NCBI RefSeq assembly: GCF_006636205.1
Contig: NZ_VIGB01000003.1
Coordinates: forward strand, 1,364,001 to 1,428,000
Direction: 5' to 3'
From: Kitasatospora acidiphila
Lineage (GTDB): Bacteria; Actinomycetota; Actinomycetes; Streptomycetales; Streptomycetaceae
DNA length: 64,000 nt
This document shows, piece after piece, positions 9,918 through 54,324 of this stretch (position 1 is the stretch's first letter; each line of letters starts with the position of its first letter). Under the pieces are notes generated by a model that ran no database searches, was not told the origin of the DNA, and saw only the letters and a list, made by a program, of their open reading frames with translations. The position numbers were made by a program, and so were the translations under genes.

Positions 9918-11264
9918 TCACCCGGGCAGCGAGTCCATGAACGAACTCACCGAGAACACCGCCTTCCCCGCCCCCGCCGGCCCGTAGCCGGGCGGCGAGG
10001 AGAGGCCGAACTCCGCCAGCGTCGCCCGGTAGGTCTGCAGCAGGCGGATGTGGTACTCCAGCGGCGCGCCCTGCGGGTTGGCCTTGCCCAGCGGGGTGGT
10101 GGGCTCGGGGCACCAGGTGGTGAAGCGCGGGACGATGCCGTGGGACATGAAGAACCGCAGCCCCTCCCGGGTGGAGGCGATCGCCTCGTCGACCGTCGTG
10201 AAACCGAAGGGCTGGGCCATCTCCACGCCCGCGACGAAGTTGGGGATCACATTGGCGGCGCCGAACACCTCGGCCGAGTCGAGGATGCGGCGGTGCCACT
10301 CCGCCCGGCCGACGTAGCGCTCCTTGCCGGGGCAGTACAGCTCGAACAGCCGCTTGTCCCACACCTCGAAGTTCGGGTGGTAGATCCGCACCCCGTAGTC
10401 GTGGAACCGCTGGACGTCGTCGCGCGGCAGCGCCTGCGCGACCACCTTGCCGATCCACCGCCCGGGGAAGCGGGATTCGATCGCCTCGGCGTACTGACCG
10501 TAGAAGTCGGCCTCGTCGCGGCCGCCGACCTGGGAGGTGATCGCACCGCCGGTGAGGGTGTACGCCTGCGAGGTGCGGCCGGTGTCGTGGCGGTCGATCA
10601 ACTCCAGGGCCTCCAGCACCTCTTCGACCGGCTTGACGCCTGTGTAGGGGCGGCCGGCCGCCTTGTGCTGGCGCCAGTTGTGGTTGATGTCGCAGTACTG
10701 GCACTCCTCCTTGGCGCCGAAGTACTGGCAGACCCGGAAGACCGTCAGGTAGATCAGGTAGCCCCACTGGATGGTCGGGGCCACCTCCATCACGGACTTG
10801 CCGTTGGCCAGGGTGTGCCGGTAGTAGTCCGGCATCGGGGGCAGGCCCACGTCCGCGATCCGCACGCCGTCGAGGTGGAGGCCGAGCGTGCCGTCCTCCC
10901 CCGCGCCCACCCGGTAGGGCGAGTCCGGGTTCACCCGCACCGACACCACCGTGCGGCGCAGCTCGTACGGCCCGCCGGTGAGCACGATCTCCTCGGGCGG
11001 CCGGTTGAGCGCGGCCGCACCCAGCTCGGGCAGGGTGCGGTGGTCGAAGGAGAAGATGAAGTACGACTTCGGCTTCACCTCGCCCGCGCCGCCGCCGTCC
11101 GTGCTGCCGCTGAGCGCCGACTCGTCGAAGGCCATGCCGCCGCGCAGCAGGTCCTCCTTGATGACGGCCTCCCGGGGCACCTCCGGGTACCGCTCCATCA
11201 GGTCCTCGACCAGCTCGGTACGGCTGCGGCCCTGCTCCTCCGGGATCCCCAGGCGGATCTCCAT
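9918..11264 (-). CDS. Radical SAM protein with CX8CX2C cysteine motif
   Basis: 448 residues. The start at 11264 has GGGGAG at good spacing. The presumed iron-sulfur site is Cys179, Cys188, Cys191 (VCQYFGAKEECQYCDINHN), giving CX8CX2C instead of the canonical CX3CX2C. The DNA supports this reading unambiguously. Downstream, YTLTGGAI sits where a GGE-like SAM motif would be, and GVRIYHPNFEVWDKRLFELYCPGK resembles the substrate strand of BioB/HydE-like enzymes. An N-terminal extension of about 165 residues precedes the barrel. I do not recognise a named family, and substrate is unknown. The neighbours are amino-acid exporters. Confidence 0.75.
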   Translation of the reverse strand: MEIRLGIPEEQGRSRTELVEDLMERYPEVPREAVIKEDLLRGGMAFDESALSGSTDGGGAGEVKPKSYFIFSFDHRTLPELGAAALNRPPEEIVLTGGPYELRRTVVSVRVNPDSPYRVGAGEDGTLGLHLDGVRIADVGLPPMPDYYRHTLANGKSVMEVAPTIQWGYLIYLTVFRVCQYFGAKEECQYCDINHNWRQHKAAGRPYTGVKPVEEVLEALELIDRHDTGRTSQAYTLTGGAITSQVGGRDEADFYGQYAEAIESRFPGRWIGKVVAQALPRDDVQRFHDYGVRIYHPNFEVWDKRLFELYCPGKERYVGRAEWHRRILDSAEVFGAANVIPNFVAGVEMAQPFGFTTVDEAIASTREGLRFFMSHGIVPRFTTWCPEPTTPLGKANPQGAPLEYHIRLLQTYRATLAEFGLSSPPGYGPAGAGKAVFSVSSFMDSLPG

Positions 11265-21516: not shown

Positions 21517-21854
21517 GGGTGCTCCTTCATCAGCGATCCGAGCCCGAGACCTACGCCCGGCCGGGCTCCTGTGGGCTCCTGCTCCGAGCCCCGGCTCCGA
21601 TCCTTTCACGTTCGCGAACGCGGAAGTGCGCAGGTCCGGGTGGCGGACGCGTTGTCCGGGTGACGGACACCGCGGCGCTCATTCCGTGATCGCGGCGCTC
21701 CTTCGGTGATCAAAGCGGGGCGTCCGTGCCGAAAGCCCCTGGCGTTCGTCGAATCATCGGGCAAAATGGAAGGCGGACCGCCATCCTGCGGCCACCGGAC
21801 GAGACGCGCCGTACCCGGACTGACAAGACGACGCAGCCGTCAGGAGGATGCCGT
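21517..21854. other. Divergent control region of aroC and small membrane gene, with short repeats
   Basis: 338 bases. A 12-base palindrome CGTTCGCGAACG sits at 21609-21620. Two 14-base near-copies beginning TCCGGGTG start at 21635 and 21655. Two 20-base near-copies beginning CGCGGCGCTC follow at 21671-21690 and 21691-21710, with 18 of 20 bases matching. Both pairs have a 20-bp period. The CAGGAGG at 21841 is the ribosome site for the next gene. Confidence 0.6.
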
Positions 21855-22106
21855 ATGGAACAGGCCGTTCAGATCTTCGGGTCGATCCTGATCCTGATCC
21901 CGTTCGCCCTCGCCCAGTGGGGCCGGATCAGCGCGCGTTCCAAGCCCTATCTGCTGCTCAACCTGTGCGGCTCGGCGATCCTCGCCGTTCTCGCCGCGCT
22001 CACCTCGCAGTGGGGGTTCCTGCTGCTGGAGGGCGTCTGGGCGATCGTCTCCGCGCACAGCCTGGTGGCCTTGGTGCGCGGCCGGGAACCGCGCGCCACG
22101 CACTGA
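21855..22106 (+). CDS. Small integral membrane protein (CBU_0592-like)
   Basis: 83 residues from the ATG at 21855, preceded by CAGGAGG; the longer frame from 21726 is non-coding. It has hydrophobic helices at about 5-22 (IFGSILILIPFALAQWG), 33-50 and 52-70. YLLLNLCGSAILAVLAAL followed by WGFLLLEGVWAIVS matches a widespread small membrane family of unknown function. It is convergent with aroE with 35 bases between. Confidence 0.72.
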   Translation: MEQAVQIFGSILILIPFALAQWGRISARSKPYLLLNLCGSAILAVLAALTSQWGFLLLEGVWAIVSAHSLVALVRGREPRATH

Positions 22107-53409: not shown

Positions 53410-54324
53410 TTACCAGCCGCGGTTGGCGTAGCGCTCGGTCTCCGGCAGGGTGTCGCAGTTGATGCCGACCATGGCCTCACCCAGACCGCGGGAGACGTCC
53501 GCGATGATCTTCGGGTCGTCGAAGAAGGTGGTGGCCTTGACGACGGCGGCGGCGCGCTTGGCCGGGTCGCCGGACTTGAAGATCCCCGAGCCGACGAAGA
53601 CGCCCTCGGCGCCCAGCTGCATCATCAGCGCGGCGTCGGCCGGGGTGGCCACGCCACCGGCGGAGAACAGCACGACCGGGAGCTTGCCCAGCTGCGCGAC
53701 CTCCTTGACCAGCTCGTACGGGGCCTGCAGGTTCTTGGCCGCGACGTAGAGCTCGTTCTCGTCCAGGGTGGTGAGGCGGCGGATGTCGGCGTTGATCTGG
53801 CGCATGTGGCGAACGGCCTCGACCACGTTGCCGGTGCCGGCCTCGCCCTTGGAGCGGATCATGGCCGCGCCCTCGGCGATCCGGCGCAGCGCCTCACCGA
53901 GGTTGGTGGCACCGCAGACGAACGGGGTGGTGAAGGCCCACTTGTCGGAGTGGTTGACCTCGTCGGCCGGGGTGAGGACCTCGGACTCGTCGATGTAGTC
54001 GACACCGAGCGCCTGCAGGACCTGGGCCTCGACGAAGTGGCCGATGCGGGACTTGGCCATGACCGGGATCGAGACGGCGTTGATGATGCCCTCGATCATG
54101 TCCGGGTCGGACATCCGGGCCACGCCGCCGTCCTTGCGGATGTCGGCGGGGACCCGCTCCAGCGCCATGACGGCGACGGCACCGGCATCCTCCGCGATCT
54201 TGGCCTGCTCGGCGTTGACCACGTCCATGATCACACCGCCCTTGAGCTGCTCGGCCATGCCGCGCTTGACCCGGGCGGTACCGATCTGCGGCTGGTCGGC
54301 GGAAGCGGGAGTGCTGGTGGACAC
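53410..54324 (-). CDS. pdxS: Pyridoxal 5'-phosphate synthase lyase subunit PdxS
   Basis: 304 residues from the GTG at 54324 (GAGG upstream). It makes PLP from ribose 5-phosphate, glyceraldehyde 3-phosphate and ammonia. [56 protein letters not shown] (catalytic Lys) and [20 protein letters not shown] are diagnostic. It is upstream of pdxT and on the same strand. Confidence 0.96.

Follow-up and report, generated by a model that had tools for sequence, protein, structure and literature searches.

A conserved, apparently stand-alone radical SAM gene of the NF045502 family in Kitasatospora acidiphila

A stretch of 64,000 nucleotides from the genome of the soil actinomycete Kitasatospora acidiphila (the window) contains a gene whose product, judged by its profile score, is a member of an already catalogued variant radical SAM family, and no chemistry was found assigned to that family. 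The protein is probably, if far from certainly, a functional NF045502 radical SAM enzyme whose barrel resembles those of biotin synthase, HydE and lipoyl synthase; this enzyme would be self-contained, hold a single cluster and act on a small molecule. The gene and the residues considered here lie at the following window positions.

9918..11264, minus strand: radical SAM protein gene (P0001), 448 aa, ATG start, stop included; identified by NF045502, fold matches and orthologues
10728..10730, minus strand: codon of Cys179, first putative cluster cysteine; invariant in 81/81 orthologues and 15/15 subfamily representatives
10701..10703, minus strand: codon of Cys188, second putative cluster cysteine; invariant in 81/81 orthologues and 15/15 subfamily representatives
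10692..10694, minus strand: codon of Cys191, third putative cluster cysteine; invariant in 81/81 orthologues and 15/15 subfamily representatives
10539..10553, minus strand: TGGAI (residues 238-242), a GGE-like motif that follows the second barrel strand (modelled at 234-238); putative SAM contact
10323..10334, minus strand: C311-PGK314; PGK is invariant across subfamilies, C311 is common to only some of them
10110..10112, minus strand: codon of Cys385 (FTTWCPEPT); found in the window's orthologue group and in no other row compared

Family assignment and modelled fold

The window protein scores 163 bits (E 9.3e-48) against the NCBIfam model NF045502 'variant_rSAM', passing its curated cut-off of 125 bits. 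Against the MSMEG_0568/Nit1C equivalog TIGR04043 it scores 25.8 bits, below the cut-off of 303.7. The gathering score of Pfam PF04055 Radical_SAM (29.5) is not reached (23.4 bits, E 7.7e-5); among the relatives, L162, L165 and L172 do reach it. Within the window genome, the gene is the sole match to itself at E <= 0.001. An earlier note had identified a radical SAM protein with Cys179-X8-Cys188-X2-Cys191 in place of CX3CX2C and with TGGAI as its GGE-like motif. Both motifs are present as described, and the radical SAM identity is borne out by the NF045502 score and by a modelled fold that best matches radical SAM enzymes. The accompanying statement that this is not a named family holds only in part: NF045502 'variant_rSAM' exists and its members share CX8CX2C, but no assigned activity was found for the window gene or the family in the open-access literature, as far as its sources were accessible.

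NF045502 is a broad domain model named only 'radical SAM protein'. At E <= 1e-15 it matches proteins in 41 of 296 genomes of the phylum (38 over the cut-off) and in two of 14 control genomes (one over the cut-off). The window protein resembles its members in the curated score, the CX8CX2C spacing and the PGK motif, whereas the C-terminal CYxCDGNS of the best members, which score about 350-360 bits, is absent from the window group.

An AlphaFold2 model of the window protein was built from 55 sequences (mean pLDDT 71.1, pTM 0.78), with pLDDT under 50 for residues 1-11, 53-88, 178-196 (the cluster loop) and 424-448. In this model the three cysteines sit, on the low-confidence loop, between strand 170-174 and helix 192-202, and TGGAI follows strand 234-238. 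Radical SAM cluster loops are normally located at such a site, after the first strand. Radical SAM enzymes, including biotin synthase, AprD4, HydE, lipoyl synthase and NifB, fill the first 14 Foldseek rows, at E 5.9e-6 to 6.5e-5 and with TM by query of only 0.30-0.38; other TIM barrels appear from rank 15 on. In VIA-align, NifB is the best match (Z 14.1, 3.1 Å, 211 aligned residues), with HydE, MqnE and biotin synthase also near the top; each of the 50 listed rows is a protein that we take to be a radical SAM enzyme from its title or from what is known of it. The model thus supports a predicted radical SAM barrel in which a three-cysteine loop follows the first strand, although likeness of fold does not by itself give function.

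Biotin synthase, HydE, NifB, MqnE and lipoyl synthase, as seen in their solved structures, share the barrel with the window protein at about 10-16% identity, and function is not transferable from them. Most of these enzymes have the CX3CX2C spacing. The Elp3 cluster motif, CX9CX2C, likewise has a long first gap before CX2C, one residue longer than that of the window protein; Elp3 was not among the matches returned for the window protein in Pfam, NCBIfam and PDB sequence searches. The PDB search returned 14 rows to E 10, the best of which, cyclic-nucleotide-gated channels at E 0.033, were read as chance matches. One paper in the open-access literature, where accessible, places 'CX8CX2C' beside 'radical SAM', and the motif there is that of anamorsin (PMC6205161).

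Conservation and distribution

Conservation was assessed in 81 orthologues, comprising the window gene and the best 80 of at least 570 confirmed relatives (82-96% identical). All five cysteines of the window protein (179, 188, 191, 311 and 385) are invariant in 81/81, as are E218, E300, P312, G313, K314 and G346, and the CX8CX2C spacing is kept throughout the set. The median pairwise dN/dS over 3240 pairs is 0.189 (dN 0.096, dS 0.485). Across 15 representatives of six subfamilies, C179, C188, C191, E218, G291, E300, P312, G313, K314, V339 and G346 are invariant. These subfamily groups were read by gene context, and gene names given here without a family call are a reading of the translations. 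In the wider family, CX8CX2C is found in 34 of 35 loci, the exception being L153. For this count, reading frames were chosen by a script in a way that favoured the motif, three of the places are duplicates, and the window itself is among the loci. Because the motif is found in 34 of the 35 family loci and is invariant across subfamilies, CX8CX2C can be regarded as a family signature. All 11 window-group rows lack tail cysteines, as do the sulfate- and BGC-type relatives, whereas 2-5 are present in rows of the Nit1C, Met and Yko types. As far as sequence comparison can establish it, these results confirm that the gene is real, under purifying selection and conserved by more than chance.

Within the window's genus, 13 of 37 genomes have an orthologue, and so do 10 of 14 genomes (57-59% identical) in a second family of the order that we guess to be Catenulisporaceae; the search that included both groups found it in 23 of 61 genomes overall. 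Another genus of the window's own family, probably Streptomyces, has the gene in 33 of 61 genomes, among which G474 holds a fragment only and the frame is split in G479. Matches at E <= 1e-20 occur in 16 of 396 genomes across the phylum; in the class, there are matches in 25 of 394 genomes at E <= 1e-12, from two of 138 genera. The best 80 of the at least 570 relatives come mainly from Streptomyces and Kitasatospora, with one Streptacidiphilus, one Actinacidiphila, two Actinoplanes and one record named Streptosporangium. Two full-length copies (83.6 and 85.5%) lie on Streptomyces plasmids, and plasmid records also contain a partial match and two distant relatives. Phage and defence libraries gave no match. 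In G410, an extra partial C-terminus is found besides the full gene: a second copy of the last 43 residues only (G410:C19:269221-269349, L190), about 130 bases behind it.

This patchy record could be read as that of a decaying, dispensable gene without present function, considering that the gene is missing from 24 of 37 and 28 of 61 genomes and that G474, G479 and G410 contain a fragment, a split frame and an extra partial C-terminus, respectively. However, the low median dN/dS and the invariance of the putative catalytic residues in every orthologue compared argue against decay, to which we give very little credence.

Gene neighbourhood and flanking reading frames

In the window, the neighbours of the radical SAM gene are AzlC/AzlD genes (minus strand) with an Lrp-type gene (plus strand) and a LysE gene (minus strand) with an ArgP/LysG-type gene (plus strand), so that the two flanking amino-acid exporter/regulator pairs described in the earlier note are real. 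From these pairs, amino-acid-related chemistry had been proposed. Such chemistry could be tied to the adjacent LysE exporter, whose gene lies 98 bp upstream on the same strand. A LysE gene is also the upstream neighbour in Kitasatospora humi (L044), the only locus besides the window for which the Pfam scan shows this, and one plasmid copy is followed, about 1.7 kb downstream, by a LysE-type gene. However, across the 81 loci, for which neighbours were called with a simple GC3-based gene caller, loci of the same lineage share neighbourhoods and those of different lineages do not. The same gene cluster is found next to the radical SAM gene in 20 of 81 loci, and two others are found there in 11 and 10. 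Among 78 dereplicated immediate neighbours of 80 loci there are 105 Pfam families, the commonest in four, and LysE accounts for at most one of the 78. The AzlCD/Lrp and LysE/ArgP pairs thus lack conservation beside the gene and give no support to the amino-acid idea, and a link to LysE is very improbable. The window gene behaves as a stand-alone accessory gene, with the neighbouring exporters probably a coincidence of lineage.

Several candidate partners or signals were considered around the gene. A coupled downstream partner, with a gap of -4 to 0 bases, is seen in three loci and is of two unrelated kinds, with a third kind on one plasmid copy; it was therefore rejected as not recurrent. The search for a shared regulator site dropped the 29 of 81 loci that could not be anchored. 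The commonest words in 27 dereplicated upstream regions are rich in G+C and hardly more frequent than in mononucleotide shuffles (12 versus 11 for 7 bases, 9 versus 8 for 8 bases), and known regulator patterns matched in 0-2 of 52 upstream regions. A terminator scan gave one site, near the shuffle mean of 0.6.

A stand-alone gene of this kind might also encode an enzyme that acts in trans to modify a peptide, a protein, RNA or another macromolecule of these kinds, in the manner of solitary radical SAM enzymes of the RlmN/Cfr or RiPP type. Solitary genes can also serve RNA or protein modification, and gene context says little about substrate size. The missing fixed partner gene and the plasmid copies are frequent features of self-sufficient modifiers. 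In addition, residues 12-40 of the window protein give a PqqD-like match, although this is weak and not significant (E 0.12, below cut-off), and a short uncalled reading frame in the upstream 500 bases is conserved in one lineage of eight loci (L054, L056, L059, L060, L063, L065, L085 and L090). Flanking sequences were compared for a peptide precursor among reading frames of at least 20 codons. The 25 most recurrent matches of a first comparison all came from one neighbouring gene, and among the 30 most recurrent of 273 flank matches outside called genes, no peptide reading frame is common to lineages. The most recurrent one, with an ACQLC... motif, is confined to one lineage and was rejected as a peptide. 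Because it is equally conserved at all codon positions (0.81, 0.82 and 0.79) and precedes the next gene, it reads as a DNA element, about 110-160 bases before that gene (alignment of 16 loci; pattern present in 17 of 80). The downstream flanks of these 17 loci (e.g. L118 and L123) carry an element with repeated CAACT/AGTTG arms before the cluster 2 gene. Tail cysteines of the SPASM type are absent from the window protein, and its relatives occur in small-molecule gene runs. Taken with the lack of a cross-lineage peptide among the recurrent flank matches, this makes modification of a macromolecule unlikely, if still worth keeping in mind.

For the preferred reading of a one-cluster enzyme acting on a small molecule, a mechanism can be proposed by analogy with the superfamily. 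The three cysteines would hold a single [4Fe-4S] cluster for the reductive cleavage of SAM, and the resulting 5'-deoxyadenosyl radical would abstract a hydrogen from the substrate. More tentatively, the substrate may be a small, widely available metabolite and not a dedicated peptide, since the gene travels alone. Also tentatively, because the C-terminal tail has no cysteines able to hold an auxiliary cluster, C311 and C385 become candidates for a hydrogen-atom donor or a substrate ligand.

Relatives and the ykoFEDC-linked sister clade

Judged by gene context, relatives of the window protein are found in several kinds of gene runs: Nit1C-type clusters (L166-L169, with TIGR04043 run on L166 only), a cysteine/methionine gene run (L163-L165, with MetW run on L163), sulfate assimilation genes (around L172 and L173) and a natural-product-like cluster (L162). 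The last of these, in a genome of the window's genus, encodes a second CX8CX2C radical SAM protein (L162:9267-10334, G004) that is 26% identical. The MSMEG_0568/Nit1C protein (TIGR04043; NitD) has in common with the window protein CX8CX2C, PGK and equivalents of E300 and G346, but Nit1C-type rows have 3-4 tail cysteines where the window group has none. No Nit1C gene cluster surrounds the window gene, whose immediate neighbours are the AzlCD, Lrp-type, LysE and ArgP-type genes.

The accessible part of a 2005 paper describes the Nit1C radical SAM gene as closest to the 'biotin synthase-related' COG2516 (PMC1199592), and this is the only paper found for COG2516 or 'biotin synthase-related' in the open-access literature. 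Where accessible, later papers give NitD only as the radical SAM protein of a cyanide-assimilation cluster (PMC8567248, PMC6368324, PMC10138600). The open-access literature yielded nothing that links MSMEG_0568 to radical SAM, or YkoF to both radical SAM and thiamin.

In a tree of 35 rows, the window group stands beside the L140/L147 clade with 96/90 support. They are joined by very long branches, of 1.97 and 1.68 changes per column, and the tree program warns that this join may be false. This sister clade belongs to another class of the phylum, which we guess to be Coriobacteriia; a search of that class with the L160 protein found the clade in five of 396 genomes from three genera. In all five loci (L160, L161, L196, L197 and L198), a TPP riboswitch scoring above the gathering threshold stands first, YkoF-, YkoE-, YkoD- and YkoC-like genes come next, and the radical SAM gene comes after them; the letters E, D and C are the customary gene names. 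Pfam identifies the four L160 genes as YKOF, ABC_cobalt, ABC transporter and CbiQ. Of the other assignments, the YkoE-like gene of L196 was called by Pfam and the remainder by likeness of translations, and the YkoC-like gene was found in 5/5 loci by tblastn (72-100% identical). The radical SAM proteins of these loci have no Pfam match in the Pfam scan. In L160 the gap between the last transporter gene and the radical SAM gene is about 320 bases, and the two are likely on one transcript. A further protein, termed X, is encoded after the radical SAM gene or fused to it (L197 and L198), and has no Pfam match.

Neither ThiC nor TMP synthase was detected in the five sister-clade genomes. Four of the five have short ThiG-like matches of 19-32 bits, three or four of them at or above the 23-bit Pfam cut-off. 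In the window genome, a similar partial ThiG match falls inside a PdxS (SOR/SNZ) gene, and so the ThiG-like matches of the ykoFEDC genomes are probably PdxS as well. That PdxS gene (window 53410-54258, minus strand) is a trap for ThiG counts by Pfam. These gene arrangements suggest that the sister-clade radical SAM protein may have a role in the salvage of an imported thiamin-like compound.

The window enzyme could itself act on a thiamin-like compound. The ykoFEDC-linked clade is the nearest outside the orthologue group in our sample, and its proteins are about 28-36% identical to the window protein and share with it CX8CX2C, C311 and an N-terminal K...G...A segment. They differ in their thiamin-regulated gene run, the extra protein X and their tail cysteines. 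Besides the long branches and the flagged join, several results speak against extending the thiamin role to the window group. Of its 228 invariant columns, 59 are common to the Yko type, hardly above the 52 common to the Met type. The 64-kb window has no TPP riboswitch, YkoF occurs in 0/61 genomes of the second genus, where 33 hold the radical SAM gene, and the window genome has both ThiC and ThiG. Action of the window enzyme on a thiamin-like compound is therefore improbable. A broader form of the idea would make the window group and the sister clade undescribed radical enzymes for the salvage or repair of thiamin-like heteroaromatic compounds, with the solitary form acting on a related soil compound. 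This is a long shot; if true, the sister form, with protein X fused or adjacent and with thiamin-type uptake genes before it, and the solitary window form would share the same chemistry on related compounds.

A riboswitch of another class is present in the window: a Guanidine-III riboswitch at 21772-21837 (plus strand; 58 bits, cut-off 36) lies 17 bases before an 83-aa hydrophobic reading frame (21855-22106) with no Pfam match, a candidate guanidine-regulated small membrane protein.

Within the NF045502 family, the window branch is of moderate interest, because no family chemistry was found and the branch is conserved, solitary and testable. The gene is carried by 46 of 98 genomes of two genera that are intensively mined for chemistry (one as a fragment and one as a split frame), and the window protein offers a single-gene, expressible target with invariant candidate catalytic cysteines. 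With relatives lying near sulfur, nitrile, thiamin and natural-product genes, one solved member could open a functionally blank family.
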